Source: Anadara kagoshimensis (Eukaryota > Mollusca > Bivalvia > Arcoida > Arcidae). Taken from it: DNA of 64,000 nt. Made by a program: the position numbers and the translations under genes. Under the pieces are notes generated by a model. It had not been told where the DNA came from. It searched no databases and worked only from the letters and a program-made list of their open reading frames with translations. This document shows positions 2,078 to 57,500 of the stretch, in pieces; positions within the stretch are counted from its first letter, which is position 1; the number at the start of each line of letters is the position of its first letter. The DNA lies in the NCBI GenBank assembly GCA_021292105.1, contig CM037861.1:60557245-60621244 (forward strand), read 5' to 3'.

Positions 2078-3331
2078 CGAGGGGAGGTCAAAAAGTTCAT
2101 AGAATGGGGTATGTGTTGCCGCAACAAACCATACATATTATCATTTTTCAATATAGTCCCCATTTACCCCAATGCACTTAGCCCACTTTTCTTTCAGACT
2201 GTCTATACCTTTGAAATAGAAGTCTTCGGTTTGATCCTGAAACCATGCCTCTGTGGCAGCATTAAGTCCATCATCATCAGGGAATCTGATTCCCCGTAAA
2301 TGGGATTTCAAATTCCTAAATAGGAAATAATCACTGGGTGCCAAATCGGGACTGTGGGGTGGGTGATTAAGTTGTTCGAACTTGCATTCACGAATCGCTG
2401 CTTGTGCAATCCTTGACTTGTGCACAGGAACATTGTCGTGAAGAAGCAATACCCCTCGGCTCAACTTTCCCCTCCTTTTTAATTTAATAGCAGCTTTCAG
2501 CTGCTTCATTAGATCAGCAAAGTAAGCCCCAGTGATAGAGATTCCAGCAGGTTTATTAACAGAACACCCTTTAGAATCCCAAAACACAGTGGCCATGACT
2601 TTGCCAGCTGATGATTGGGTTTTGAATTTCTTTGGTGGGAGTGAGCCATGGGCTCTTTTTTGGTTTCTGGGTCCCAATGATGAATCCAAGTTTCATCACC
2701 AGTTACTAGACGTAAATGGAAGCTCTCCGGGTTATCATTATAAATGCCAAGAAGCTCCCGACTTGACTGGAGTCTTTGGAAGCGATCATGCACATTAAAG
2801 TTTCTAAGGACCCATCTTGCGGATACTTTTGACATCCCAAGATGCTCGTGGATAACCGTGTATACACTTTCATGTGAAATGTCACACTCCCTAGCTATGT
2901 CATCAATCCTAATTCGACGATCATTCATGATGAGTGTCTGCACAGACGTGACAATTTCTTCTGTGATGGCATCAGCTGGCCGACCTGACCGTGGGTCATC
3001 CTTCAGTGAGGTTCGCCCACGTTTATTTGCCACCGTGGAATAGGCAGGACTACTGTCACCGTACACCTCGGCCATTCGCCGGTGAATTTCTTTGGGAATT
3101 GATCCCTCTACTGTGAGGAACTTTATTACTGCCCTAAACTCAACATTTTGATTTTCCAACATTGCTTGATGGTCGCCAACTTTGAATGCTTTTGAGAATT
3201 ACACAAATATGTTGTGACAAATAAACTTGATATGTTTAAATGGCGGAATGTTGTGTTGTCTAAATAAGTAAAGAAAATGTGTGTTACGCTTGTCTGAATA
3301 CGCTGTTCTATGAACTTTCTGACTTCCCCTG
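2078..3331 (-). mobile_element. mariner transposon (about 1.25 kb), inactive
   Basis: The terminal inverted repeats are CGAGGGGAGGTCAAAAAGTT at the left and the complement of a near-identical end (AACTTTCTGACTTCCCCTG) at the right, each continuing into TTCATAGAA. Both ends abut a TA dinucleotide (2076-2077, 3332-3333), the classic mariner target. The length is normal for a full mariner. The single transposase frame is broken (see 2141-3162). It lies inside MITE copy A1. Confidence 0.93.
2141..3162 (-). pseudogene. mariner transposase, frameshifted
   Basis: DD34D transposase of the mariner family (IS630/Tc1/mariner superfamily), which would cut and paste the element by binding its terminal repeats. 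The N-terminal half lies in one frame from the ATG at 3160-3162 and includes the inter-helix motif RGRTSLKDDPRSGRP and the first catalytic Asp in VTGDETWIHHWDPETK. The C-terminal half lies in another frame and contains PPKKFKTQSSAGKVMATVFW, the second Asp in LLLHDNVPVHKS and the third in SPDLAPSDYF, spaced 34 residues apart. It ends near KCIGVNGDYIEK with a stop at 2141-2143. The frame change falls around 2630-2665, just after PETKK. The normally present KWAAEF-like residues before KRGRTS are also missing, a small in-frame loss near the second helix-turn-helix. Product inactive. Confidence 0.93.
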
Positions 3332-7749: not shown

Positions 7750-8940
7750 AGGTGTTAAATACACTTGTTATTGGATTGAAGATGTGTAATGAAAAGAAAA
7801 AACATTATTTTACGATATTATGCTTGCTCTGGTAGTATTATTTTTTATGTACTGGTGAGAATATTTCTCAAACCATGTTTGTATGGAAATTATATAAGAC
7901 CCAATTTTCAATACATTAGCGAAAACTATATATAATATGACCTACAGTATATCGTCACTTATTCCAGGGACTCCAGTTTCCCGGTCAACGACATTCAAAC
8001 CAAACAATATTATTAACAACTCGGGTGATGTATTTGTAAAAAAAAATTAAACGACGATATGAAAAATATAAACAATACTATTATTCTAAATATATAACTC
8101 TGTATTTTTTTATTCAACTTATTTGAATTTTCGATTATGAATAAAATAGAATATAATATTTACAGTTGAATAATATGTACATACCCCAACCCTTCAATAG
8201 CCGAAGCAATAAAAAACGACACACAAAAAGGGACTATACGAGACAGTTTATATGATAGTAAACATACTATATGTATATCAAGGAAACTTATCATGATTAT
8301 AACATGTGCTCATCAGTTTCAGCAATAGTCTGTTAAAATCCATCGATTCTCCTCACTCAATGATATCTATTATCTGATATTGCCCGGGTTTTTCTTTTCC
8401 ATTGTCAGTTTTAATTTATACATGGTGAATTAAAATCATCAACAGTGACATTATTATTTCAGTTCCATGATACTGTTTGGATTACCACCAGGTGTCCAGT
8501 AACTTTTTTAATCTGGTAGGTGGCAATCCTGTGTTAATTAAGTCGATTCTAAAATACGTTAAACTGATGGAACGCAGCCGATGTGAGCAAAAATATTACT
8601 ATCTAGTTGTATTGGGGATGTTCATTTAGTCGGTCAGTTTGACAATTTTAAATCGACATAATTGTTTTTACTACGATGGCCTATAGCAGCCAAAAGAAAC
8701 TTTTTTTAATTCTGAAAATATGCTTAAAAATGTACCACTTAACCTCAAAATACGTCCTTGGTATATGGTTTAAAGGTACATGGGACAATTTGTGATATTT
8801 AAAACTTGTATAACAGTTGTATAGAACAAATTATATTTTTGGTGTATATGAAGGGAGAAAACTCAAATGTCAACTACACTGTTTAGTGATGACCAAAGTT
8901 CATGAGCTTAAAATTAAATTCCAGATGAGTTGATTTTAAT
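7750..8940. other. Gene-free AT-rich stretch
   Basis: Nothing recognisable on either strand beyond AT-rich sequence and random short open frames. Confidence 0.5.
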
Positions 8941-8944
8941 CTGC

Positions 8945-9320
8945 GGCTTAGGCGTTGGCCTTCAAGTCCAACACGTCTCACCGATGTTGGTTCGATCCCG
9001 GTCGAAAGGGGGTTTCCTTGTCATGAAAGGCTGTATTGGTTAGCTCGATACAAGCATCATTGACCGAGTACCCTGCTATGTTCACCTGCGACATTGCGGG
9101 GAAGTGTACTGCACTGGTACAAAGTAGAAAAACACTTGCAAAACTTCATACAAACTATGGACTTTTGCTAATATCAATCCTTAAGGTTAAAAGCTACGAA
9201 ATGGTGTCTACCTTCCAGCTCCGTATGTCGTCATAAAGGCCGCTGTCGGAAATTGGGACCGGGCTTAAAAAACTCAAACCGGAGAGGGAATGGCCTTGTA
9301 AAACGCACACAAACCACTGA
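8945..9320 (+). mobile_element. tRNA-derived SINE
   Basis: The tRNA-like head holds TTAGGCGTTGGCCTTCAAGT and a good B box, GGTTCGATCCCGGTC, near 8990. Downstream is a non-tRNA body (GTGTACTGCACTGGTACAAAGT..). There is no tRNA cloverleaf with proper stems, so it is not a functional tRNA. Body family uncertain. Confidence 0.6.
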
Positions 9321-21149: not shown

Positions 21150-24100
21150 GATTTTAAAGGTTATGTCGTGCAATAAAAATCAAATTCTGAGTCAAATTCT
21201 TTAAAATATTTTTATTTTAAAATATAAAAAAACGACGGGATTGGTTTGACAGACTTTAGTCTTATATATATTTAGAAAGGCTTAACGTTTAACGTATATA
21301 CAAGAAACTAAAAAAGGCTTTCGAATGCATTAAAATTTTAAAGTTTTTAAACTGAATTAAGACGGAGAAGTTGCAATTCGCTCAGTCATTAAATTCTCAT
21401 TTCACTTTTCTTTCTTTTGACAAAGCACTCTGTAATTTTTCTGACGGAAACAAAGTACAATAATATACATCATAAAACTTTTTAGTTTGATATACAAAGG
21501 CATCTTCTTCCATTTTCGTTTCAACTCAATGGACATTTTTTGTCCATTGGTATACTGATTGTTTGTTGGAAAATAATGTTCCCAAACACAACAAATATGT
21601 TGTCTTTCTAACATTTTGTTGATGGCATTTTGAGACATTTAGAAAATCTTAAGCTTCACATTTTTGTCATCTGGATTTTAATGTAACTAAAACGAATTAT
21701 CACTCAAATTCTTTAAAAAATCATTTTAAAATTTAAACAGGATATGATCGGTTGGCATGGCTTTATTTCACGATATATTCAGATGGGCTAAGAGTATAAC
21801 ATTAATGCAAAGAACTTAAAAAATAACTTTCAAATGCGTTTAACCTTCAAAACATTAGAAGGTTTGTAACATGAAATAAGATGGAGAAATGAATATACAT
21901 TTCAGTAATTAAATTCTCATTTTACTTTTCATTCTTTTGGCCAGACATTTTCTTAATTTCTGATGGATAGAGAGACCAATAATCTACAGAATAAAAATTC
22001 CTAGTTGGATATAAAAATTCTATTTACCTTTTTCCAATCTATTTCAATCAAATTGACCTTTTGTATCAATTGGTATACCGATTGTTTGCTGGAAAATTAT
22101 ATTACCAAACACAAAAAAATTGTTGATGATCAACAATTAAGAAAACATTTTTGTAAACATTTCCTCTGGATTTTAATAGTCGTGGAGTGCAAATAATCAA
22201 ATTATCACTAAAATTCTTCAAAAAGTTTTCAGTTTTAAATTAAAATTTAAAAAAATATGATCGGTTGGAATGACTTTATTTTAGAGAGGTTTTAACTATT
22301 ACATTACTGCAAAGAACTTAAAAACAACTATCAAATGCATTTAACCTTCAAAACATTAAAAGTTTTTTTACTTGAAATAAGATGGATAAATTGATACATA
22401 TATATTTCTGTCATTCAATTTTCTTTTTACTTTTCATTCTTTTGGCAAAACATTCTCTTAACATATTTACCTGACGGATAAAGTGTTCAATAATCTACAT
22501 AATAAAAAATCCTAATTGGATATACAACTTCACATTTTCCCAATTTCTTTCTACTCAATTTATACCGATTGTTGTTGGAAAATGTTATTACGGAACAAAA
22601 CAAATATGTTGTCTTCCAACATTTTGTCGATATTATCTTCAGAAATGGAGCAAAGTTTAAGCTTAACATTATATGTTTGTCTTCTTGATTTTTAATGGCC
22701 GTGTCCTGTAATAAAAATCAAATCATCACTCAAATTCTTCAAAATGTTTTCAGTTTAAAATTAAATCAAAAAAAGGTCGTATCGGTTTGACATTGTTATA
22801 TTCCACGGAATGTATAAAGAGGTTTTACGTAAAAAAGTATTGCAAGAAATTAAAAAAATAAATTCAAATGCATTTTAATTTCATAATATTAAAGGTTTTT
22901 AAACTGAATTAGGATAGAGAAATTGATATATATTTCAATTATTCAATACTCATTTTACTTTTCATTCTTTTTGTAACATTTTCTTTTATTTCCTAAAGGA
23001 TACAGAGTGCAATAATCTACAGAATAAAAATCCTGGTTGGATTTGCATTCATTTTTCTCTAATTACTTTCAACCGAATAGGCTTTTTGTGTGCATATTGG
23101 TATACCGATTTTAATTGAAAATTGTATAACCGAACACAACATATACAATTATCCTTCAAACATTTAAAGGTTTTTAATCTGATTTAACATGAAGAAATGG
23201 ATATATATTTCAGTAATTAAATTCTCATTTTACTTTTCATTCTTTTGGTAATACGTTCTCTTTATTCCTGACGGATAGAGAGACCAATAATCTACATAAT
23301 AAAAATTCCTACTTGCATATACAAATTCACCTTCTTCCAGTTACTTTAAACTTAAAAAGACCTTTTGCATAGTTTAGTATACCGATTGTTTGTTGGAAAA
23401 TTATATTATTGAATACAACAACGACACAAATATGTTCTACATCTAACATTTTATTGATAGTATCTTTAGAAATTTAGTAAACCTTTAAGCTAAATATTTT
23501 TGTATATGTCTTTATCTTCCGGATTTTTATGTTATAAAAACTAATTACCACTTAAGTTCTTCAAAAATTGTTTTTATTTTAAAACTTTCAAGAAAATTGG
23601 ATCGGTTTGGCATGACTTTCTGCAAGATATATTTAGAGAGGCTTAGGGCATAAATCTATTGCAAAACAAATTAAATAAAATAACTTTTGCATGTATTTCA
23701 AATTCGAAACTTAAAAAGGTTTTTAAGCTGAATGAAGATGGAAAAATCGATATATATTTAAGTCATTAAATTTTTTTTGATTTTTCATTCTTTTGGCAAG
23801 CCATTCTCTTTATTCCTGACAGATAGAGAGTCCAATAATCTACATAATAAAAATTCATCTTCTGAAACCTTTCATCTCAAATGGGCCATTTGTGTCCATT
23901 GGTATGGAAACACAAAAATATATTTTGTTGATGATATCTTCAGAAATTATGAAAATTTTAAGCTTAACATTTTTGTATATGTTTGTCCTCTGGACTTTTA
24001 ATAGTTGTGTGTCGTGCAAACATTAAATTATCACTCAAATTCTACAAAATGTTTTCAGTTTAAAATTAAATTTAAAAAAGGCAGGATAGGATCGGTTGGC

Positions 24101-24910
24101 ATGACATTATTTTACGGAATATTTAAAGAGGTTTTGCGTATAACATCAAGGCAAAGAATTTAAAAAATAACTGTCAAATGCGTTTAAGCTTCAAAACATT
24201 AGAAGGATTTTTACCTGAAATAAGATGGAGAAATGGATATACATTTCCGTCATTAAATTTATTTTACCTTTCAAATTTTTGGCCAGACATTCTCTTAATT
24301 CCTGACGGATAGAGTCAAATAATCTACATAATAAAAATTCATAGTTATATATAAAGATTCACCTTCTTCCAATTTAATTCAATGACATTTTACCTTTTAT
24401 GTCCATTGGTATACCGATTGCTTGTTGGAAAATTATATTACCGAACACAACAATGTAACAAATAACTTGTCTACCTAACATTATTTTATTGATGGTATCT
24501 TCTGCAATTTAGTAAACTTTAAGCTTTACGTTTTTGTATCTGTTTTGTGTTCAAATTCTTAAAAAAATTAATGTATTTTTTTTTTTAAAAGATAGGATCG
24601 GTTGGCATGCTTTATTTCACGATATATTTAGGGATGTTAATCGTATAGCAATGTTGTAAAGAAAAAAAATTAAATTCAAAAACATTTCCATTTCTAAACA
24701 TTAGAAGGTTTTTAACCAGAAATAAGATGGAGAAATTGATATACATTTCAGTCATTAAATTCTCATTTTGCTTTTCATTCTTTTGGCCAGACATTCCATT
24801 TATTCCTGACGGAAAGAGTCCAATACTCTACAAAATACAAATTCCTAGTTGGATATAAAAATACTTCTACTTCAAATTGCTTTCAATCCAAATGGACATT
24901 TTCGATATGC
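21150..24910. repeat. Diverged satellite array, about 510 bp unit, 7-8 units
   Basis: A unit contains, in order, GATGGAGAAATGGATATAYA-type sequence, TTTTACTTTTCATTCTTTTG, GCCAGACATTCTCTTTATTC, CTGACGGATAGAG, AATAATCTACATAATAAAAA, CCATTGGTATACCGATTGTT, TGTTGGAAAATTATATTACC, CCTCTGGATTTTAATGG and GATCGGTTGGCATGACTTTA. The GATGGAGAAA landmark recurs near 21361, 21880, 22380, 22913, 23192, 23737, 24223 and 24727. Spacing is 486-545 bp except one short interval of about 280 bp, a deleted unit. Units differ by many substitutions and small indels, so the array is old. No coding frame is conserved between units. Confidence 0.93.
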
Positions 24911-25262: not shown

Positions 25263-25274
25263 TAATTACAAAAC

Positions 25275-25320
25275 AGCACTAGACGGCCGTTTCGGAATAC
25301 AATTCCTCATCATTAGTGCT
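25275..25320 (-). ncRNA. Type I hammerhead ribozyme motif, copy 1 (one core change)
   Basis: Minus strand, 5' to 3': stem I strand AGCACTA; core ATGATGA; stem II GGAAT-TGT-ATTCC; core GAA; a minimal stem III (A-U and C-G closing a GGCC loop); cleavage triplet GTC; stem I partner TAGTGCT. Stem I is seven perfect pairs and stem II five. The predicted cut is between plus-strand 25281 and 25282. The only departure from the CUGANGA core is A for the first C, which should abolish or weaken cleavage. Hammerheads with a very short stem III are known in Penelope-like elements and in small non-autonomous retrozymes of molluscs. Shared sequence with copy 2 extends to about 25375. Confidence 0.75.
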
Positions 25321-25379
25321 TGAACCAAAATTATGAAACCAAAATTGTTATCAAGATGTTGAAACAATACCCAAACGAC

Positions 25380-27535
25380 CAAAATATATTTTACCAAATT
25401 TAGCCACGGAAATACTTTGCATGAGGGAGTATTCTTTAGTTTTTGAGGTATACGCAGGGTATTTTTTTAAGAATGATCAATAGGCTATTTGTTGCTTAGT
25501 AAATTGAAGTAAATTAATTAAGAAGTGGTTTAGGGTTTGGGACGTTTTTTTCTGTTTATGTGACCTAAACTCTTGATAAAAGTAATCATAAGTATTTATC
25601 ACTGCGTAATAAGACAATATAAACGAACTTAGACCCCTTAATTAAGAAAATTAAACGCCAAAAATTTCCCAAAACCAATGTAAATTTCGAAGATGAATGT
25701 CGAAATTAAAACATCTGCACATAAAAAGATATGACATCTGAGAATTCACTCTATTACCTATGAGATTGGTAGGTGTTTAGATTGCCAGGACACATAGTTT
25801 CTCAGCGCTGGCCTGTGTATTATTGATTTAATTATAATTTGAGAGTGACACACCGCATCAAATGAGTCTGATTAGATACAGAGATGTCGTCTTTAATTAT
25901 TGTTGAAATATACTAATCAAAGAATTCCCTTATTGAAAAAATGATGAGAATAAGCACTATTTAAGAATGCGCAATGCAATATGAGTGTTATTTATTCTAA
26001 CATATATTTTGTTTCAGAAAGGTAAAAGAGGAGTTTGAAAAAATTGTAAATGTATTTAATTATTAGTGTATTTGGTATGCATGTACTTATGTGCTTGTTT
26101 AGACAGTATAAACATTATTTACTTCTGTATACAGTGATACCGTCCTAATAAAGATATTCAAAAACAAAATAAATAATCTAATAGGCAGGTGCCTTTATCT
26201 AAACATAAATATATCTTTAGCATCCAGCCCTTATTCAGTTATAAATAGATGTCCTTTTTACAAAGGCGCCTTTTATAGTCAGGTTTCACGGTGTATAATA
26301 CCAGATTTTGAATATAACTATGAAATTTTTGAAGAGCCAATGAAAAATTGCATTTAACCATTCAGAGTGTAATAGAGTGAAGTAATATCATTATGTGGCC
26401 AAATCATGAACCGTTCATTCATATCTTATTTTCCTCCAAAGTTCTCAGAGAAAACTACCTACCTTAGGCGAGCGAGGTGACAAACTTATGAACCGTGAAG
26501 GAGAATCGAATCTACCGGGTGAAAGACACTTTGTTTCGAAAGTCGTTGCCACTTAGGACGCCAACAATTTTAGAAAATGTGTTAAGTAATGATTTGAAAC
26601 CATAATTAATTTTTTGCAGATGCCTGACAACAATGTGTTGCAGACTTCTAGAAATAATGTACTTCAGATTTATTGCACCAATGTATTACGGGGACCAATG
26701 TGTTGCATTACAATTTCTCATTTCTCCTAACAACCATAAACGAAGTTGACCATTCGTATTAACTCTTTAATTGTTTAGTTTGTAACCAAAACTATCTTCT
26801 CGTAATGGTATATACTGGAACATTTGCAATTTGTGCCTGGTAGGTCTAAAACTTGTATAATCAAAGACGAACATACTATTCCATCACAAATAGTTAAACA
26901 TAAATGCAAATTTAACACTTTGGCTGGCTGAGCTGACAAATGCTTTCGATCTGTGACATTTCTGATTAAACCTTAACATTATTATAAAGCTTCACTTATA
27001 CAGAATCCATACAGCTATTGCATTTAGAAAATCCAGTTAGATTAATGCGCCATTTAATTGATTGAATTTATATCAATTAAATTGTGTATTTAAGGACTGC
27101 AATGTAGTTAAGTATAATTGAATGTGAAGTACATGTTTACATTGCACAAATACCCATTAATTATTATATTTTATATGCAAAATGGCACTTAGATAAAACT
27201 TACTTCAACATTGACGACGAAGAAGATTGTAACTAAATTGCCTATTAAACAAATTTTTCAACATGTTTCAGAAATGTTTTGAGAGAACCCCTGTACCTAC
27301 TGACTTCAGTGGGTTTATACAGAATCTCTGCAAATCTTTTTAAGTGGCCTTAATCCGCACAATTCCTCTGACACAAAATCCAGTAATTGCCTCTTGCACT
27401 TTCTAGCAGATATATTAAGCTATTTTGTTTTTAAATTCTTATTAAATAGAGTAAGGAACTGAAGTATTTGAAAGAATAGCACATGTTGAGAACGTTTCTT
27501 AGTTGCCTTTTTTTCTGAGGTCGGTGATACTCTTT
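25380..27535. other. Gene-free stretch
   Basis: AT-rich sequence without recognised exons, SINEs or inverted repeats. Confidence 0.5.
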
Positions 27536-32328: not shown

Positions 32329-33332
32329 CGCAGTCTTCAATTGGAATTTTAAAACAATAATATAAGACCTAAAAATAAAAGTGTTTCCGATAACCTGAGG
32401 GATTGTAAAACTTTTAATTCCTGCCTTCATTTTTACAAAAGCATGGTTAAATTTGGCATCACAATGCACTATTACATAATCGCAGTCTTCAATTGGTATT
32501 CAATAAAACTAATATTAGACATAAAATAAGAGTGTTTCCGCTAACCAGAGGGATTGTAAATCCAGTCCTAATTTTTTATAAGATATTTTGACAAGCACTG
32601 TTAAATTTGGCAACAGGTAAATCGTACACCATGCACTGTTGCATCACCGCAGTCTTTATTTGGTATTTGATTAACTTAATATTAGACTTAAAAATAAGAG
32701 TGTTTCCGCTAACCTGTGGGATTGTAAATTTAAATTCCTGCCCTAAATTTTTATAAACATATTTTAACGAGCACTGAAAAAGTTGTCATCAGGTAAATCG
32801 TATACAATGCAATATTACATCATTGCAGTTTTCCATTGGTATGTAATAAAACTGATATTAGACCTAGTGTTTCCGTTAACCTGGGGGATTGTAAATCCTG
32901 TTCTAATTTTTTAGAAAATATTTTTACAAGCACTGTTAACTTTGGCATCAGGTAAATCGTACACAATATTGCAGTCTTCAATTGTAATTTAATAAAATTA
33001 ATATAAGAACTAAAAATAAGAGTGTTTCCGCTAAACTGGGGGATTATAAATTTTCTGTCCTAAATTTTTATAAAATATTTTGACAAGCATTGTTAAATTT
33101 GGCATCAGATAATTCGTATATAATGCAATACTGCATCATCGCAGTTTTCAATTAGTATTCAATAGAGCTAATATTAGACCTAAAAAAATGCGTGTTTCCG
33201 CTAACCTGGGAGGTTGTAAATTTCAAATTCCTCCCCTAATTGTTTACTAAGATATTTTGACAAGCACTGTTAAAGTTGGCATCAGATAATTCGTATATAA
33301 TGCACTATTGCAATACCACAGTCTTCAATTAC
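32329..33332. repeat. Tandem array, about 165 bp unit, about 6 units
   Basis: Each unit carries GCAGTCTTCAATTGGTATT, AATAAAACTAATATTAGACC, AGAGTGTTTCCGCTAACCTG, GGGATTGTAAAT, ATTTTGACAAGCACTGTTAA and GGCATCAGGTAAATCGTA. The GCAGTYTTC landmark is at about 32330, 32481, 32650, 32826, 32972, 33141 and 33321. A continuation of the last unit (ATTCAATAAAACTAATATTA) lies at 34965-34985, on the far side of the Penelope-like insertion. Confidence 0.92.
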
Positions 33333-34964
33333 CAAACTTAAAGGGTCTATGAGTACTAAACCGTCTTCAGTACTCAAGGATCCAGAAATCAAGGCAATTC
33401 TTACAGACATACACAACAAATATGTTGTTGTCCCAGCTGATAAGGCTTCCAACAACATAATTCTCGTTTGTAAGAGATTCTACCTTGAATGTCTTATTAA
33501 GGAGCTTGGTTTAGATAGTATATCAAATAACCCTGCATATTCTAGAACTAATTTTACCAAAGATGAAGTTCTTTCCAACCATAGGGGAGTTCTCGAGTCT
33601 TTCGGTATCAATCTTAAAGATCTTGATCTTCCTTACTTGTATTGGATTCCTAAACTCCATAAAAATCCATACAAGGAAAGATATATAGCAGGCTCATCTA
33701 AATGTACTACTAAATCATTATCGGTAACTCTAACACAAATTTTGACAATCGTCAAAGATGGTCTTCAGTCTTATTCAGAAAAAGTATATTCTACATCTGG
33801 AATCAACCAAATGTGGATTCTCAATAATTCTAAAGAATTACTTGAACATCTTGCTTCTAATACTTTATCTCATGTAAAAAGTATAAAAACATTTGATTTT
33901 TCTACACTATACACCACAATCCCTCATTCTAAATTGAAAGAACGTCTTAAAGAAATTATTCACTTGTCTTTCTTCTACAAAAACGGTAAGCCAAGATACA
34001 AATATCTGGTGCTGAACAGGGATTCTGGTTATTTTGTCAAGCATCATACGGATTCCAAACAAAAATATACTGAAGATACCATCAACAAAATGTTGGAGTT
34101 TTTGATAGATAACATATTTGTTGTGTTTGGTAATATAGTTTTTCAGCAAACAATCGGTATACCAATGGGTACAAACTGTGCACCATTGCTTGCTGATTTG
34201 TTTCTTTATTCTTACGAAGCAGAATTTATGCAGAACCTTGTTAAATCTGGAGAGAAAACTGTCGCCAAATCATTCAACTCAACATACAGATACATAGATG
34301 ACGTTCTGTCTCTTAACAATCCTAAATTTGGAGACTATGTAAATGTCATCTATCCTAGTGAGCTTGAAATAAAAGACACGACTGATTCCTCAAGTTCTGC
34401 TTCATATTTAGACTTATACCTGAATTATGACGCACAGGAAAGGCTACATTTGAAACTTTATGACAAACGTGATGACTTCAATTTTTCTATTGTCAACTTT
34501 CCTTTTTTATGCAGCAATATGCCTGCTTCTCCTGCTTATGGTGTATTTGTTTCCCAATTAATACGCTATGGTAGAGCTTGTTCCCACTACGGGGACTTTG
34601 TACAACGAAGTAGGCTGCTTGCAAATAAATTGTTGACTCAGGGATATTGCAAGCCTAGGCTTATCAAGGCCCTCAAAAAGTTTTATGGCCGTCATCACAG
34701 TATTGTTGATAAGTTTGATATCTCTGTGTCCAGGATTGCCTTGGATATATTTGACGTCTCATAGTTCCATGTTCCTTTCACACAATTTTGATTACACACG
34801 TGACGGGTGTAGCTAGCTAAACAGGAGGTGCTTACCCTTCCGGAGCACCCGGCCTCACTTCCCTAGTGGAAGTTCACGTGTCTAACCTAACTTGTCAGTT
34901 CCAAAGTTTTTACTTTGCTTCTGGATTGTGATTCGGAAATGGATAAGTATGTTTGTTTTTGATT
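33333..34964 (+). mobile_element. Penelope-like retroelement, 5'-truncated insertion in the 165 bp array
   Basis: The left junction cuts the array unit after CAGTCTTCAATT. The right junction resumes at ATTCAATAAAACTAATATTA, so the unit is interrupted at one point with loss of about 3 bp (GGT). The element holds the reverse-transcriptase frame (33349-34764) and a roughly 200 bp non-coding tail that recurs elsewhere in the window. The tail carries ACACGTGA and TTCACGTGT about 110 bases apart, able to pair. No GIY-YIG endonuclease, long repeat or ribozyme is present, consistent with 5' truncation or an endonuclease-lacking lineage. Confidence 0.8.
33349..34764 (+). CDS. Reverse transcriptase, Penelope-like element
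   Basis: A 471-residue uninterrupted frame. Would copy element RNA into DNA during retrotransposition. Visible motifs: VVVPADKASNNIILVCK (residues 26-42), the ADKxxxxV segment typical of Penelope-like polymerases; LYWIPKLHKNP (97-107), their PKxHK motif; motif A KTFDFSTLYTTIP (180-192, catalytic Asp183); motif B QTIGIPMGTNCAPLLADLF (267-285); motif C YRYIDDV (313-319, Asp317-Asp318); YLDL (353-356) and the thumb-side KLYDKRDDFNF (369-379). The frame is open without ATG for six codons upstream to the insertion border, so Met1 may be internal and the N-terminus lost. No endonuclease domain follows. All catalytic residues are intact, so this is a young or recently active copy. DIRS or retron-type origin is less likely because the PKLHK and TLYTTIP combination is Penelope-like. 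Confidence 0.88.
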   Translation: MSTKPSSVLKDPEIKAILTDIHNKYVVVPADKASNNIILVCKRFYLECLIKELGLDSISNNPAYSRTNFTKDEVLSNHRGVLESFGINLKDLDLPYLYWIPKLHKNPYKERYIAGSSKCTTKSLSVTLTQILTIVKDGLQSYSEKVYSTSGINQMWILNNSKELLEHLASNTLSHVKSIKTFDFSTLYTTIPHSKLKERLKEIIHLSFFYKNGKPRYKYLVLNRDSGYFVKHHTDSKQKYTEDTINKMLEFLIDNIFVVFGNIVFQQTIGIPMGTNCAPLLADLFLYSYEAEFMQNLVKSGEKTVAKSFNSTYRYIDDVLSLNNPKFGDYVNVIYPSELEIKDTTDSSSSASYLDLYLNYDAQERLHLKLYDKRDDFNFSIVNFPFLCSNMPASPAYGVFVSQLIRYGRACSHYGDFVQRSRLLANKLLTQGYCKPRLIKALKKFYGRHHSIVDKFDISVSRIALDIFDVS

Positions 34965-34989
34965 ATTCAATAAAACTAATATTAGTTTT

Positions 34990-37615: not shown

Positions 37616-37966
37616 TTTGATTACAATGCATTAATCATTGTTAAAACTCAGACATAGTTAAAGATTACTGAGATTTCAAAAGAATGAAATACTGACAATA
37701 GTAAATTGCATTATGAATTTGTGAAACCGCGAGTGTTCGTGTCATACGTTCTTGTTCTGGTTTTGTCTATTGCAATATCACGTAAACATATCATAATTAG
37801 CAGCAGACATCAAAGCTAATGGTAATCAGTTATGTGATTTATGCATTTTTGTAAGGGTGATTCACAAGTTATTTCACGTCCCTCAATACCACATATATGG
37901 CTTAATTGGAAACTACATTTAATTGCAATTGCTTTAAATTACATATTATACCAGTTTTAATTTAAC

Positions 37967-38012
37967 AGCACTAGACGGTCGTTTCGGAATACAATTCCTC
38001 ATCAGTTTTGCT
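37967..38012 (-). ncRNA. Type I hammerhead ribozyme motif, copy 2 (intact core, weak stem I)
   Basis: Minus strand: stem I strand AGCAAAA; core CTGATGA (canonical); stem II GGAAT-TGT-ATTCC; GAA; minimal stem III with loop GACC; triplet GTC; stem I partner TAGTGCT. Only the outer three pairs of stem I remain. Same length (46 nt) and spacing as copy 1. Where copy 1 has the core mutation, copy 2 has the consensus, and where copy 2 has stem mismatches, copy 1 is paired. Similarity between the copies runs from about 37955 to about 38045. Confidence 0.75.
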
Positions 38013-38185
38013 TGAACCAAAATTATAAAACCAAAACTTTCCCCCAAGCTTTAAAATGATACATAACATGAATACATCAAATTAATTAAAAACACTTGTA
38101 CTATAAATTCAAGTTTCTACAGGTCTGAAAAAGAAATGCAACATGTTAAAGTCAGAAAATGAAATTACTTACCTACTGTCTGTGT

Positions 38186-40937: not shown

Positions 40938-41166
40938 TTTATAAATTGGTATTTAGTGTTCTCTAAGTGTAAATCAAATTCTCAAACCTCTACATCATGA
41001 ATTATTTCGACATTTCATATTGAATTCCGGTATTTACAGAAACAATTCAATATATTTGTACTTTTAATTAAAACGTATTATATAGACAAGACTGTAACGT
41101 CGATAAGAGTTTCAACACGGAAAGTGTCGCAAGCAGTGTAAAACTACTGATGAGAAACCTGTATAG

Positions 41167-41358
41167 TACGATGGCCACGTAGTGACATGAAATATATTTG
41201 TTAAATATTAGGTGTGCATGTAGTACCTAATATGTGGTGACGTAGTCATTTTTTACGTGAATATATATATTCCTTTACGCGCGCACGTCATCGATTACAA
41301 TGAACGCACGTAATATTTAAAAAAAAACATATTTCATGTCACTTCTGTGCCACCGTAG
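41167..41358. mobile_element. MITE with about 44 bp terminal inverted repeats
   Basis: Left arm TACGATGGCCACGTAGTGAC ATGAAATATATTTG..AAATATTA; the right arm is its complement with a few mismatches, ending TGTGCCACCGTA. 192 bp, AT-rich centre with a TACGTG / CACGTCA region. Outer TA at both ends. Confidence 0.8.
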
Positions 41359-48482: not shown

Positions 48483-50300
48483 CTGAAAGAGAAAACACAA
48501 TTTATTAATACATGTAATATATACCAGTAATGCAGGTAAAGTACATTTATAAATACAGGAAGTATATGTATATGTATAGATTTTAACCCTCTTGCTGCCA
48601 AGCGGACACACATGTTCTCTACTGACAGTCTGCCACAGGGACACATGCATCTCTTACTGGCTGCCTTTCAATGGAACTGAAAACTGTGACATGACTAAGA
48701 GATACTTATAATCTTTTTTGCAAAGTAAACAAAAATGCAATATGTTAACGAGTACTAATGTAATGATGGATGCATCATTACAAATAAGGCGCCCAAACGA
48801 ATAAAAATCAAACCCTGTATTCAAAACACATATTAGGACTTGTACTTTTATTGCTTTTTTCCATTTCCATGGCAACGGCTGAAAATTTTAAATAAGTTCT
48901 ACACACAATAGAAAAACTGTTGAGAAATTTTAAACTTGTAATATTCTTTTCAATTTAAGATTTAATTTTATATAGAGAAGTAGTACATGAATCCAATTAG
49001 TTGAAATTCAAACAATAGGCAAAGTTGATTGACATCACTTATACCCAATATCACAAACCATTGTTTTGATGAGCTAATGATGTGTTGATTTTAAATTAAT
49101 CCAAGCATTTACCAATATAATGTAATACTGATAACTAAATGCAGCTACTCTATAGAATTGAATAATAAATCATGCCCCAGGGATAACTGACCATTAGTGT
49201 TGCTTATAAAAAGATTTAGCTTGAGGGCTTTTAGACATGAATCAGTGATTACTTAAGTATTCTTGACAATGAAAATTTATGCTTATTGTTTTAATTCTTA
49301 AACAAAATGATAGCAACCAGCCCATGAAGAAAACTGTAGTTTGAGGGTGGGGATCTCAAAGTTAGTACCTAGACCTACCTGTCTCCACCCTCCTATTGGA
49401 ATGACCATATGGGTTTACTTTAGTATCAATCTATTCAACTTTTCATAAAGAATAAGAAAATATATATGTTAGGGGTGGGGATCTCAACTGATCAAAAGTT
49501 AGTACCCAGCCCCGCCTGTCCCTGCCCTCCTCTGGAAAACGCCATGGGCATTTCTTCAGTGTCACTCTATTCAACTTTTACAACAGAACCGGAAAATATA
49601 TAGTTTCAGGGTGGGATATCAACCATTTAAAAGTTAGAACCAAGCCCCGCCCGTCCCCACCCTCCATTAGGAATGACCCCATGGGATTTTCTTTAGCATC
49701 ACTCTATTCAACTTTTTATGTAGAACCAGAAAATATATAGTTTATGGGTGGGGATCTCAACCGTTTAAAAGTTAGCACACTGCCCCGCCCATCCCCACCC
49801 TCCCTGATACCGCAGGGAAAATCTACTGATGCAGACTTGTGCATCTTGAGATACTGATCATGAATATATATGGTTTTATAGTACAAAATAAAGTATAAAT
49901 GGCAAAATTGATCATTATTGTTTTTAAGACCCCGCCCTCCTGCCCCTCCCCTAATGACCCCATGGGCATTTTTTCTCGGCCTCTGGGGAAGGAGATGGGG
50001 ATCAACCTTCATGTGAAGTTTGGTTAAGATTGGACCAACGGTCTTCGAGAAATTGGTTGGACAAGTTCATGGCCGGAAGAAGAAGAAGAGGAATAATAAT
50101 AACGAGTATTAATGTAATGATGGATGCATCATTACAAATAAGGCGCCCAAACAAATAAAAGTCATACCCTGTATTCAGAACTCATATTATTAGAAATTAA
50201 CAGTTTTTTTTACTTCAAGGTTTAAATGCTATAAAGATTCAAGAGATGTAACCTTTTTGGTCATTTAGAATATATACTTGGAGCAAGCATGCCTATGTAT

Positions 50301-50338
<38 letters not shown>

Positions 50339-51496
50339 ATTGTATTCTAAAAAAATGTTGTCTTGGTGTCAAATGAAAGTAGAAGTAGTACATGAATCCA
50401 ATTGGTTGAAATTCAAACAATAGACAAAGTTGACTGACATCACCTATACCCAATATCACAACCTGTTGTTTTGATGAGCTAATGATGTGTTGATTTTAAA
50501 TTAATCCAAGCATTTACCCATGTATGTCATATTGATCACTAAATACAGCTACTCTATCGAATTGAATAATGAATCATGCCCCAGGGATAAATGACCATTA
50601 GTGTTGCTTATATTGAGAGCTTTTGGACATGGATCAGTGATTACTTAAGTATCCTTTACAATGAAAATTCAAGCTTATTGTTTTAATTCTTAAACAAAAT
50701 GATAGCAGCCATCCCATGAAGAAAACTATAGTTTGAGGGTGGGGATCTCAAAGTTAGTACCTAGACCTACCTGTCCCCACCCTCCTATTGAATGACCATA
50801 TGGGTTTACTTTAGTATCAATCTAATCAACTTTTCATAAAGAATAAGAAAATATATATGTTAGGGGTGGGGATCTCTACTGATCAAAAGTTAGTACCCAG
50901 CCCCGCCTGTCCCCACCCTCCTCTGGAATAACGTCAGTATTTCTGCAGTATCATTCTATTCAACTTTAAAAGCCGAACCGGAGAATATATAGTTTCAGGA
51001 TGGGGATATCAACCATTTAAAATTTAGTACCAAGCCCCGCCCATCACCACCCTCCATCAGGAATGACCCCATGGGACTTTCTTTAGTGTCACTCTATTCA
51101 ACTTTTTATGTAGAACCAGAAAATATATAGTTTATGGGTGGGGATCTCAACCGTTTAAAAGTTAGCACACTGCCCCGCCCATCCCCACCCTACCTGATAC
51201 CCCCGGGAAAATCTTGCCATACAGACTTGTACATCTCGAGACACTGATCATGAATATATATGGTTTTATAGTACAAAATATAGTATAAATAGCAAAATTG
51301 ATCATTATTGTTTTTAAGACCCCGCCCTCCTGCCCCTCCCCTAATGACCCCATGGGCATTTTACCTCGGCCTCCAGGGAAGAAGATGGAGATCAACCTTC
51401 CTGTGAAGTTTGGTCGAGATTGGACCAACGGTCTATGAGAAATTGGTTGGACAAGTTCATGGCCGGAAGAAGAAGAAGAAGAGGAAGAATAATAAA

Positions 51497-51528
<32 letters not shown>

Positions 51529-54500
51529 GAAACGGTGCAAAAACAATAAGTCGCCAAACTTTGTTTGGGCGCCTTAATAATAATAACGAGTACTAATGTA
51601 ATGATGGATGCATCATTACAAATAAGGCGCCCAAACGAATAAAAATCAAGAATTTTAAACTTGTAATATTGAGATTTAATTTTATATATAGAAGTAGTAC
51701 ATGAATCCAATTGGTTGAAATTCAAACAATAGGCAAAGTTGATTGACATCACCTATACCCAATATCACAACCTGTTGTTTTGATGAGCTAATGATGTGTT
51801 GATTTTAAATTAATCCAAGCATTTACCCATTTAATGTCATATTGACAACTAAATGCAGCTACTCTATCGAATTGAATGAATCATGCCCCAGGGATAACTG
51901 ACCATTAGTGTTGCTTATAAAACAGATTTAGCTTGAGAGCTTTTGGACATGGATCAGTGATTACTTAAGTATCCTAAACAATGAAAATTCATGCTTATTG
52001 TTTAAATTTTTAAACAAAATGATAGCAACCAGCCCATGAAGAAAACTATAGTTTGAGGGTGGGCATCTCAAAGTTAGTACCTAGACCTACCTGTCCCCAC
52101 CCTCCTATTGAATGACCATATGGGTTTACTTAAGTATCAATCTATTCAACTTTTCATAAAGAATAAGAAAATATATATTTAGGGGTGGGGATCTCAACTG
52201 ATCAAAAGTTAGTACCCAGTCCCGCCTGTCCCCACCCTCCTCTGGAATAACATCATTTGTATTTCTGCTGTATCATTCTATTCAACTTTAAAAACCGAAC
52301 CGGAAAATATATAGTTTCAGGATGGGGATATCAACCATTTAAAAGTTAGAACCAAGCCCCGCCCGTCCCCACCCTCCATCAGGAATGACCCCATGGGACT
52401 TTCTTTAGTATCACTCTATTCAACTTTTCATGTAGAACCAGAAAATATATAGTTTATAGGTGGGGATCTTAACCTTTTAAAAGTGAGCACACTGCCCCAC
52501 CCATCCCCACCCTCCCTGATACCCCGGGAAAATCTTGCGATACAGACTTGTACATCTCGAGACACTGATCATGAATATATATGGTTTTATAGTACAAAAT
52601 ATAGTATAAATAGCAAAATTGAGCATTATTGTTTTTAAGACCCCGCCCTCCTGCCCCTCCCCTAATGACCCATGGGCATTTTACTTCGGCCTCTGGGGAA
52701 GGAGTTGGGGATCAACCTTCATGTGAAGTTTGGTTAAGATTGGAGAAACGGTCTTTGAGAAATTGGTTGGACAAGTTCATGGCCGGAAGAAGAAGAAGAA
52801 GAGGAAGAATAATAATAATAATAATAAGAAACGGTGCAAAAACAATAAGTCGCCAAACTTTGTTTGGGCGCCTTAATAATAAGAAGAAACGGTGCAAAAA
52901 CAATAAGTCGCCAAACTTTGTTTGGGCGCCTTAATTACTGATATTAAAATCAACCATAAACTAATGATGTCATATGACTACAAAGGCATCTGATATCATC
53001 ATAACCTATTGTTGATGTCATATCATTTTGAAGGGTGAAATACACTTTGGCACTGTCAAGGTCATTTTGAAAAGAAATTTAGCAGCAAGAGGTTCAAATT
53101 TTGTTTCCGTGTAATAACTTTATATACAATCTTAAAAACTAAAACTCAACTCCAACTGACCACTATGAGTGATTTTATTTTTACCAACTAGTTTCATCTG
53201 GAAAAATCAGCTATCATCAGGGTGAAGAATGAAGAAATAATGAACGAGAACCAACACCCTTCTGTGTGTGTGTATGCTATGAACTGAGTTATCATCAATA
53301 TCTTCTGGAAGAATGGACAACAGGTGTATAAAACTTACAGGGGTTCAAAATTATGTTTTGTAATGGAAAGTCTAGCAACTTTTGTCTTTATTTTTGGCAA
53401 GTCCCAACTTAAGTTTTTTAAATCAAATGTCAACAATGAAAGGCCCATGTGCAATTATGTTATCATATAGAAAAAGTAGTATTATTCTGGTAAAAAACTG
53501 CAGGTCCTTGGCTTTGGAGTCGAAATATCAAGGGTCCCAGTATAAAATCAATAAATCCTGGACCTTGGACACATATAATTTAGGACCCCTGATTTACCTG
53601 TTTATTTGTACTATGCATCATTATTAAAGCTGTCATCATTTCAGGTAAAGCTACAGGTATCTTTGTAAGCCGTTCATAAAACACCTTCAGAATTTTTGTA
53701 CACATTTGATATAAGTCATTGCGCTGTAAAAAGTTGGCTAATCTTACAAGGTTATTGGCCGATACCGAGTTAGGACTTGGTTCTGCTCCATCTTGATCTG
53801 AAAAGAAAATAATTAATCAAAAACAAACATATCAATCCATATCAAAACCACAATCCCAAAGCAGAGTAAAATACTTTGAAGCTGGTTAAACACGTGAACT
53901 TCCACCAGGGAAGTGATGTCAGGTATTCCAGACAGGTAAGCACCTTCCAATGCTTCCATCTAGCTAGCTACATCTGTCATGTGTGTAATGAAAAATGGGA
54001 ATGAAAGGAACATGAAACTATGGAATGTTGAATGTATCCAGAGTAATTTTGGATACAGAAACACCATATATGATATTAATCAACAACATTGTGATGACAG
54101 CCATAAAAGTTTTTGAGGGCCTTGATAAACCTGATATATCCTTGCATCAACAATTGCTTGCAGGCAGCTTAAGAAATAATCAACATCTTCTAGTGGTAAA
54201 TCGTTGATTTCATATGAAAGAAAAGGCAGGTCATATTTGAATTATCCAAAATAAGTTTAATTTTTGGTAGGGAACTCATATTTACTCCACCATTCTGGAA
54301 CTGACTGCCATGATACAAGTGAAATTATTTTGACTGGAGTGGGGGCTCCTACTCTAAACAAGTTAACTACTACTGCGGTAACTCAGTTGGTAGAGTGCTT
54401 CCTCCGTATGTGAGAGGTCGTGGGTTCCAACCCCAACTGGGTCTGACCCAAGACTTAAAAGTGAGTAGTGATTGTTCTTTCGTCAAGCACTCAGCATTAC

Positions 54501-57500
54501 GAAATGAACATCACGGTTCTTTCGGATGGGAACTTAAAATAAACGAGTACTAATGTAATGATGGATGCATCATTACAAATAAGGCGCCCAAACGAATAAA
54601 AATCAAACCCTGTATTCAAAACACATATTTGAACTTGTAATTTTGTTGCTTTTTTCCATTTCCATGGCAACGGCTGAAAATTTTAAACCTTTAAATAAGT
54701 TCTACACACAGTAGAAAAACTGTTGAGAAATTTTAAACTTGTAATATTTTTTTCATTTTAAGATTTAATTTTATATAGAGAAGTAGTACATAAATCCAAT
54801 TGCTTGAAATTCAAACAATAGGCAAAGTTGATTGACATCACCTATACCCAATATCACAAACCATTGTTTTGATGAGCTAATGATGTGTTGATTTTAAATT
54901 AATCCAGGCATTTACCCATATAATGTCATACTGATAACTAAATGCAGCTACTCTATCGAATTGAATAATAAATCATGCCCCAGGGACAAATGACCATTAG
55001 TAATGCTTATAAAAAGATTTAGCTTAAAAACTTTTAGACATGGATCAGTGATTACTTAAGTATCCTTGACAATGAAAATTCATGCTTATTGTTTTAATTC
55101 TTAAACAAAATGATAGCAACCAGCCCATGAAGAAAACTGTAGTTTGAGGGTGGGGATCTCAAAGTTAGTACCTAGACCTACCTGTCTCCACCCTCCTATT
55201 GGAATGTCCATATGGGTTTACTTTAGTATCAATCTATTCAACTTTTCATAAAGAATAAGAAAATATATATGTTAAAGGTGGGGATCTCAACTGATCAAAA
55301 GTTAGTACCCAGCCCCGCCTGTCCATGCCCTCCTCTGGAAAACGCCATGGGCATTTCTTCAGTATCACTTTATTCAACTTTTAAAACAGAACCGAAAAAT
55401 ATATAGTTTCAGGGTGGGATATCAACCATTTAAAAGTTAGAACCAAGCCCCGCCGGTCCCCACCCTCCATCAGGAATGACCCCATGGGATTTTCTTTAGC
55501 ATCACTCTATTCAACTTTTTGTGTAGAACCAGAAAATATATAGTTTATGGGTGGGGATCTCGACCGTTTAAAAGTTAGCACACTGCCCCGCCCATCCCCA
55601 CCCCTCCCTGATACCGCAGGGAAAATCTACTGATATAGACTTGTGCATCTTGAGATACTGATCATGAATATATATGGTTTTATAGTACAAAATAAAGTAT
55701 AGATGGCAAAATTGATCATTATTGTTTTTAAGACCCTGCCCTCCTGCCCCTCCCCTAATGACCCCATGGGCATTTTACCTTGGCCTCCAGGGAAGGAGAT
55801 GGGGATCAACCTTCATGTGAAGTTTGGTTAAGATTGGACCAACGGTCTTCGAGAAATTGGTTGGACAAGTTCATGGCCGGAAGAAGAAGAAGAAGAGGAA
55901 GAATAATAACAATAATAACGAGTACTAATGTAATGATGGATGCATCATTACAAATAAGGCGCCCAAACGAATAAAAATCAAACCCTGTATTCAGAACACA
56001 TATTAGGACTTGTACTTTTGTTGCTTTTTTCCATTTCCATGGCAACGGCTGAAAATTTTAAACCTTTAAATAAGTTCTACATAAAATAGAAAAACTGTTA
56101 AGAAATATTAACTTGTAATATTCTTTTCATTTTAAGATTTAATTTATATATAGAGAAGTAGTACAAGATTGGTTGAAATTCAAACAATAGGCAAGTTAAT
56201 TGACATCACCTATACCCAATATCACAAACCATTGTTTTGATGAGCTAATGATGTGTTGACTTTAAATTAATCCAAGCATTTACCCATATAATGTCATATT
56301 GATAACTAAATGCAGCTACTCTATCGAATTAAATAATAAATCATGCCCCAGGGATAACTGACCATTTGTGTTGCTTATAAAAAGATTAAGCTTGAGAGCT
56401 TTTAGACATGGATCAGTGATTACTTAAGTATCCTTGACAATGAAAGTTCATGCTTATTGTTTTAATTCTTAAACAAAATGATAGCAACCAGCCCATGAAG
56501 AAAACTGTAGTTTGAGGGTGGGGATCTCAAAGTTAGTATCTAGACCTACCTGTCTCCACCCTCCTATTGAAATGCCCATATGGGTTTACTTTAGTATCAA
56601 TCTATTCAACTTTTCATAAAGAATAAGAAAATATATATGTTAGGGGTGGGGATCAACTAATCAAATGTTAGTACCCAGCCCCACCTGTTCCTGCCCTCTC
56701 TGGAAAACGCCATGGGCATTTCTTCAGTATCACTCTATTCAACTTTTAAAACAGAACCGGAAAATATATAGTTTCAGGGTGGGATATCAACCATTTAAAA
56801 GTTAGTACCAAGCCTCGCCTGTCCCCACCCTCCATCAAGAATGACCCCATAGGATTTTCTTTAGCATCACTCTATTCAACTTTTTATGTAGAACCAGAAA
56901 ATATATAGTTTATGGGTGGGGATCTCAACCGTTTAAAAGTTAGCACACTGCCCCGCCCATCGCCACCCCTCCCTGATACCGCAGGGAAAATATACTGATA
57001 CAGACTTGTGCATCTTGAGACACTGATCATGAATATATATGGTTTTATAGTACAAAATAAAGTATAAATGGCAAAATTGATCATTATTGTTTTTAAGACC
57101 CCGCCCTCCTGCCCCTCCCCTAATGACCCCATGGGCATATTACCTCGGCCTCTGGGGAAGAAGATGGGGATCAACCTTCATGTGAAGTTTGGTTAAGATT
57201 TGACCAACTGTTTTCGAGAAATTGGTTGGACAAGTTCATGGCCGGAAGAAGAAGAAGAAGAGGAAGAATAATAATAATAATAATAATAATAAGAAACGGT
57301 GCAAAAACAATAAGTCGCCAAACTTTGTTTGGGCGCCTTAATAAGGTCCCGTGTCTTGGTAGGCCTGCTGTATAATGCCATCAGTGCAATGCTCTTTTGC
57401 TATAGCTGGTGACATCTCGATATAGGTGAAATATTCTTGACTGGGACGTTAAAAATCATTACTGAACTCAACTCTTTAACTAGTTAACTCCTTACCTTCT

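Follow-up and report, generated by a model that had tools for sequence, protein, structure and literature searches.

The window, the whole stretch of 64,000 nucleotides analysed here, contains a type I hammerhead ribozyme (HHR; copy 1, 25275..25320, minus strand) within the fragment of a repeat at 25264..25447, minus strand. Taken alone, this copy is an ordinary relic. The family to which it belongs forms tandem arrays, and its insertions have a fixed 3' end and scattered 5' ends. Copy 1 is likely a dead, 5'-truncated insertion of a non-autonomous retrozyme with a unit of ~339 nt and one type I HHR, which has been active in this genome through the life cycle described below.

In this life cycle, tandem copies would be transcribed, the hammerhead would cut the transcript into units, and the units would be closed into circles. 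The reverse transcriptase (RT) of another element, most likely a Penelope-like one, would then prime on nicked AT-rich DNA. Synthesis would begin at a constant point inside the unit, ~37 nt past the site of cleavage, and the enzyme would make a variable number of turns before stopping at random. The resulting insertions would be 0.6 to 13 tandem units long and would share their 3' phase but differ in their 5' phase.

The hammerhead motif in the window

On the minus strand, 25320-25275 reads AGCACTA-ATGATGA-GGAAT-TGT-ATTCC-GAA-AC-GGCC-GT-C-TAGTGCT. The open stem I has 7 bp, stem II has 5 bp with the loop TGT, stem III has two pairs with the loop GGCC, and the triplet is GTC. The cleavage point predicted from the motif is 25282/25281. 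All stems are intact, and the sole departure in the core is A at C3 (ATGATGA). The earlier note had described a 46-nt minus-strand type I HHR with all these parts and with a single core departure, A for C at the first core position. Both are confirmed by direct reading, and the motif also by a covariance model of phage HHRs. In the minimum-free-energy fold of the 46-mer, stems I and II are formed and the three-way HHR core is absent.

A 31-nt motif pattern with up to three mismatches matched the window twice, at copy 1 and at a second copy (copy 2), against 0.00 matches in 100 dinucleotide shuffles. Rfam, by which the earlier note proposed to check the motif, reported no hammerhead in the window. 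Nor did it report any in the controls, which were the array loci L130, L133, L138, and L140 and the phage HHR loci L011 and L007 (E up to 1) and a 241-nt stretch of L130 with an intact copy (E up to 10). Since Rfam also missed intact copies, its negative result for the window has no weight. The Rfam copy used, or its filters, may be blind to this HHR class.

A covariance model was therefore built from 28 phage HHRs, the distinct ones among 57 candidates with good stems in 120 listed viral loci. A loose HHR pattern had matched at least 120 loci in viral contigs; more specific HHR patterns gave no match there, and prokaryote genome contigs gave none. The 28 phage HHRs were chosen by a pattern that fixes the core and none is from the genome under study, so the model is independent of the genome but not of the motif definition. 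Of the 28 matches that this model listed over the whole window, the best is copy 1 (30.4 bits, E 9.6e-9), followed by copy 2 (22.4 bits, E 1e-5). Both still match, copy 1 with its core change and copy 2 with its broken stem I. Intact array copies score 38.7-38.8 bits and carry in full the type I core CUGAUGA...GAAA...UH with three helices and an open stem I.

The third-best match in the window (41141-41169, plus strand, E 0.009; CTGATGAGAAAC) has a short stem I and no stem II, and is possibly a degenerate minimal motif or a chance match. In one viral contig (L076), two phage HHRs at 8503-8537 and 9049-9083 lie on one strand, 546 nt apart, and flank an apparent coding stretch. This pair may cut polycistronic phage RNA.

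Retrozyme copy 1 was delimited by BLAST against the 339-nt unit and by eye. Positions 25447-25273 match unit phase 80-254 at 92% identity, so that the copy starts at phase 80 and spans ~0.5 unit. About 20 nt are deleted just 3' of the ribozyme, and the usual end GTAATT follows; the deletion and the part at 25272-25264 were read by eye. Of 111 family copies compared, only copy 1 itself has C3 changed to A, which suggests a lesion private to it. Being single, truncated, and internally deleted, and having a core change that none of the others shows, copy 1 probably carries a dead HHR, in line with the suggestion of the earlier note that it no longer self-cleaves. That copy 1 is instead a working ribozyme with a host function is extremely improbable: its stems are intact, but single changes at C3 and G8 abolished cleavage in a Penelope-like HHR (PMC11167929), and none of the other compared copies has the C3 change.

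Copy 2 is another 5'-truncated retrozyme (37933..38062, minus strand; BLAST against the unit and against copy 1), and it stops at the usual end, unit phase 286. Positions 38036-37933 are 94% identical to unit phase 183-286, and copies 1 and 2 have 84 of 100 positions in common, up to 38062 (BLAST). Its HHR (37967..38012, minus strand), found by the pattern and by the covariance model, has the intact core CTGATGA and a broken 5' arm of stem I (AGCAAAA). As the lesions of the two copies differ, their common ancestor would have had an intact core and an intact stem I.

The window contains other repeats. A repeat of ~200 nt occurs eight times on one strand at 21335-24902, with 74-84% likeness to the copy at 24700-24902. 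Five blocks of ~137-138-bp tandem repeats with ~3 copies each and a similar unit lie at 49358-56943. At 2141-3198 on the minus strand, two overlapping frames match Transposase_1/DDE_3 and a helix-turn-helix model (the latter below cut-off), which suggests a mariner-type transposase gene that a frameshift has split. At 1881-2050 on the minus strand, Rfam reported MIR2593 (E 3.2e-5, 46 bits against a gathering score of 96.2); the match more probably reflects the inverted repeat of a small transposon than a microRNA.

A dispersed family of tandem arrays

The exact 26-nt intact core is present in 4587 copies genome-wide (1.115 Gb), 2326 on one strand and 2261 on the other, and the reversed-pattern control gave 0. 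A query of 301 nt around copy 1 gave at least 68 matches (the best 40 of 3986 candidates were scored), many of them in register at steps of ~339 nt. Of the first 20 loci fetched, 8 have HHRs at a spacing of 336-339 nt, within the 150-400 nt in which the earlier note suggested looking for tandem partners; other spacings were 340-344 nt or longer. The family thus consists of tandem arrays of a ~339-nt unit with one type I HHR per unit, and it is dispersed in many copies. The claim that copy 1 is a relic of a mobile ribozyme-bearing element is well supported by these thousands of intact-core copies and their tandem partners.

No RT was seen in the 339-nt unit, and no LTR, primer-binding site, polypurine tract, or protein was seen in it by eye. 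Stem III is present with two pairs. Judged by its sequence, the anatomy of the tandem arrays matches that of the metazoan non-LTR retrozymes. The family is a further member of an already known kind of element, and it has been active in this genome.

Base pairing was compared among 109 copies, two misplaced matches being excluded. In 61 changed pair cells, the pair was kept as a G-U type in 22 and broken in 39, and there were no double changes. Among 36 distinct copies, which were collected by likeness to the motif, there were likewise no double changes, and no measure of covariation exceeded shuffles. Because the copies were collected in this way, the pairing counts say little either way. The earlier note had named variation of paired positions without compensation as evidence against the motif. 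Such variation is nominally present, with 39 broken pairs against 0 double changes. The uncompensated changes are read here as the decay of dead copies in a young family.

In five of six older copies tested, identity is higher in the HHR (83-89%) than in phase 1-205 (64-76%), a comparison that may favour the HHR as four older copies were found by an HHR-containing query. The sixth, a side piece of L191, shows 72% for the HHR against 74% for phase 1-205. In L212, the tail is kept at 97% against 85% for the ribozyme. Unit phase 285-339 (L130:1576-1630) is GC-richer, is predicted to fold, and adjoins the insertion end point. It is found in recognisable form in older copies at 65-73% identity.

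Insertion ends and the template

The ends were mapped on the natural 339-nt unit of L130, with an arbitrary phase 1; the ribozyme occupies phase 207-252 and the cut falls after 245. The first sample comprised 39 loci found with a query of phase 80-254, and the second comprised 26 loci found with a whole-unit query. Eight loci with shared flanks (L136, L139, L141, L150, L153, L166, L177, and L184) were dropped before the ends were counted. Pieces of the first sample with identity below 90% were also dropped: all of L155, whose pieces end at 282 and 274, one side piece of L138, and two pieces of L140. In the second sample, the pieces of L183, L185, and L197 were joined by hand, and the main array of L191 was used; the count excludes the side pieces of L191 and L197. 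Both window copies are outside these counts, which cover 56 independent insertions.

The 3' ends of 54 of the 56 insertions fall at unit phase 274-290, ~37 nt past the ribozyme cut, and none falls within 3 nt of the cut at phase 245. The two exceptions end at 264 (L191) and 257 (L197). The old L140 pieces, uncounted and 68-77% identical, end at phase 311-312, against the fixed end. The 5' starts are not distinguishable from uniform (R 0.103, p 0.55 for all 56; R 0.227, p 0.19 in the first sample; R 0.066, p 0.90 in the second), and one of the 56 lies within 3 nt of phase 246. The insertions are shorter than one unit in 16 of the 56 cases and reach 13.1 units. Exact counts over the whole genome show the same end point. 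At the cut, 3241 of 4275 copies (76%) continue 7 nt across it; beyond the end point, 821 of 4124 (20%) continue 7 nt. Exact counts also drop by ordinary mutation, and the 76% figure gauges that drop.

The fixed 3' end ~37 nt past the cut, combined with scattered 5' starts, is possibly new. It is not described in the Results and Discussion parts of PMC7229834. A literature search on retrozymes and target-primed reverse transcription, with supplements and most subscription papers outside its scope, found only other elements treated. This signature of a fixed 3' end and a random 5' end is the part of interest to specialists.

The ends suggest that reverse transcription has a single internal starting point and random stopping points. 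They agree with target-primed reverse transcription that begins at a constant position within a circular or an uncut concatemeric RNA. A linear self-cut monomer would end at 245, and reverse transcription to its 5' end would stop at 246; neither pattern is seen, indicating that the template spans the cut.

The same ends bear on the possibility that the family is ordinary satellite DNA, spread at the DNA level by unequal exchange and extrachromosomal circles with an incidental HHR. The tandem arrays with a uniform unit length would agree with this, and growth of arrays after insertion is conceivable. However, insertions with different flanks agree in their 3' phase and scatter in their 5' phase, which points to reverse transcription, as do the 16 of 56 copies shorter than one unit and the short target duplications, whereas DNA circles are expected to scatter both ends. 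It is very improbable that satellite spread explains the family.

The target-duplication signal itself is weak, with an excess at 4-5 nt only in the strict test. This test required an exact tail and used 36 of 51 insertions. Direct repeats of at least 4 nt flank 13 of them against 6.9 in shuffles (reached by 6 of 1000 shuffles), and those of at least 5 nt flank 7 against 2.2 (reached by 3 of 1000). Repeats of 6 nt or longer are not in excess in this set (1 against 0.7 expected). A looser test gave direct repeats of at least 6 nt in 9 of 51 insertions against 2.6, and no excess of inverted repeats at 6 nt or more. For two insertions the empty site is known, because the target is an older Penelope-like copy; read by eye, their duplications are TTCCA (L214) and TTTC (L215). 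In a third nested copy, L182, both joints have short microhomology, and no duplication is evident.

The template could be either kind of RNA that spans the cut. In 9 arrays of the first sample, 34 of the within-array variable sites were private or shared with at most one other locus, against 5 that recurred in two or more other loci. For the 26 arrays of the combined samples, 230 of 303 such sites were private, and in 73 the minor base recurred in two or more other loci. Twenty of the 26 arrays were closer within than between, and six were not. One circle per array was good in the first 9 arrays and weaker in the 26; the 73 common sites and the six arrays not closer within are not predicted by a single circle per array, which was not kept as a rule. 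Overall, the variation leans to one template per array.

It is rather unlikely, yet deserves serious weight, that the same retrozyme uses a long uncut concatemeric transcript, with reverse transcription running from the fixed internal site through several units and the ribozyme having another or later job. The same fixed 3' and scattered 5' ends are expected from such a transcript, and the 73 of 303 sites shared with other loci agree with it. The HHR of a Penelope-like element of a lizard cut only when protein was added, and its ribozyme mutants had no effect on insertion in vitro, both of which favour a concatemer; unprocessed RNA was suggested there as the main substrate (PMC11167929). In contrast, the mostly private variation in the first 9 arrays speaks for circles, and mussel retrozyme RNA is reportedly mostly circular according to the Results and Discussion parts of PMC7229834. 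A circular template stays the preferred reading for the family described here.

The Penelope-like element and related systems

A candidate partner enzyme lies in the window. At 33328..34967 on the plus strand, a 5'-truncated Penelope-like element with a YIDD reverse transcriptase (RVT_1, E 1.4e-5, 25.3 bits, cut-off 29.6) stops at the common 3' end of its family. Genome-wide, a first look gave 70,864 candidates for this family, of which 88 were scored and were 94-100% identical in protein. The longest frame has a GIY-YIG domain (22.5 bits, cut-off 22.6) before the RT (23 bits, cut-off 29.6). From this pair of domains, we take the element to be Penelope-like; the endonuclease N-terminal to the RT presumably recalls the Naiad group. 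Eleven other copies end at position 3147-3154 of L199, and most copies are 5'-truncated (loci L198-L209). Tandem repeats at ~32470-33330 were considered as a pseudo-LTR and rejected: they form an older array into which the Penelope-like copy is inserted, since the unit sequence continues past the 3' end of that copy (by eye).

The earlier note had named both Penelope-like elements and retrozymes as possible carriers of the motif, and the retrozyme fits better. It is quite improbable that the HHR belongs to a Penelope-like pseudo-LTR and that copy 1 is a fragment of that element. Such an element is present in the window, and minimal HHRs are known in Penelope-like elements according to the relevant parts of PMC7761336. 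Against this, no HHR was found by the pattern or by the phage-HHR model in 12 Penelope-like loci, ~4.4 kb of each being covered, and none flanks or overlaps the RT reading frame there. The 339-nt units show no RT, and their two-pair stem III differs from the pseudo-LTR class of HHRs, which lacks helix III.

As the RT partner of the retrozyme, the abundant Penelope-like element is a candidate. The retrozyme tail and the tail of this element show no clear likeness by eye. Of the 65 retrozyme loci, 31 have pieces of this element within the sequence fetched, a frequency at which nearness alone means nothing. In L176 (G000:C13:18239900-18242200, at 954-1699), a retrozyme array directly adjoins the final 120 nt of the abundant Penelope-like element (99.2% identity). 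The Penelope-like piece ends at the common 3' end of its family, none is present in the 5' flank, and AATATAT occurs near both outer flanks. A genome pattern search for similar joins, over a 30-nt range of joint positions, found four places, and three were inspected: in L214 and L215 a retrozyme has inserted into an older Penelope-like copy, and L216 contains just a 20-nt tail piece. L176 was therefore dropped as direct evidence of a template jump by the partner enzyme, as similar joins proved to be nested insertions. The Penelope-like copy in L214 starts one base from the piece in L176 (3028 and 3029), so L176 may have arisen by insertion at the margin of a truncated, older copy. As a template-jump chimera, it is suggestive only.

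As a tentative generalisation, which falls somewhat short of an even chance, animal retrozymes might be inserted by rolling-circle target-primed reverse transcription, with a Penelope-like enzyme starting at a fixed point just past the HHR on covalently closed RNA. If this is true, array length and 5' phase are a record of the turns made by the enzyme, and the common geometry of an HHR plus a tail is a recognition module that lets retrozymes borrow the Penelope-like machinery. With thousands of copies a few percent apart, the insertion ends can test the template and the RT start site of animal retrozymes. They offer a simple signature to seek in the retrozymes of mussel, coral, and axolotl.

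The closest known system is the metazoan non-LTR retrozymes. In the Results and Discussion parts of PMC7229834, these are tandem repeats of 150-450 bp with type I HHRs and abundant circular RNA; mussel units are ~350-390 bp, with most conserved loop-contact nucleotides missing. As described there, they share with the present family the type I HHR with a short stem III, tandem repeats of 170-400 nt, thousands of copies, short target duplications in some copies, and the co-occurrence of Penelope-like elements. Their target-site duplications exceed 4 bp when present; the excess of flank repeats here is at 4-5 nt. The fixed 3' insertion end and scattered 5' starts set the present family apart from that description, and the kinship drawn here is one of anatomy.

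Plant LTR retrozymes are likewise small and non-autonomous, with HHRs and circular RNA, the latter being predicted for the present family. They differ in having type III HHRs, LTRs, a primer-binding site, a polypurine tract, a dimeric arrangement, and 4-bp duplications, according to the relevant parts of PMC7229834 and PMC7761336.

The Penelope-like element of the lizard offers a likeness in geometry. Its purified enzyme initiates reverse transcription internally, 111-118 nt into the ORF, and the HHR cut is 26 nt into the ORF, upstream of the RT start; its targets are AT-rich, with a preferred ATT motif (PMC11167929). The present retrozyme resembles it in the predicted fixed internal start past the HHR cut, the defined tail, and the AT-rich target. 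The start is ~85-92 nt past the cut in the lizard element, as computed from the figures of PMC11167929, and ~37 nt past it here. The lizard element encodes its own RT and endonuclease; the likeness described here is one of geometry.
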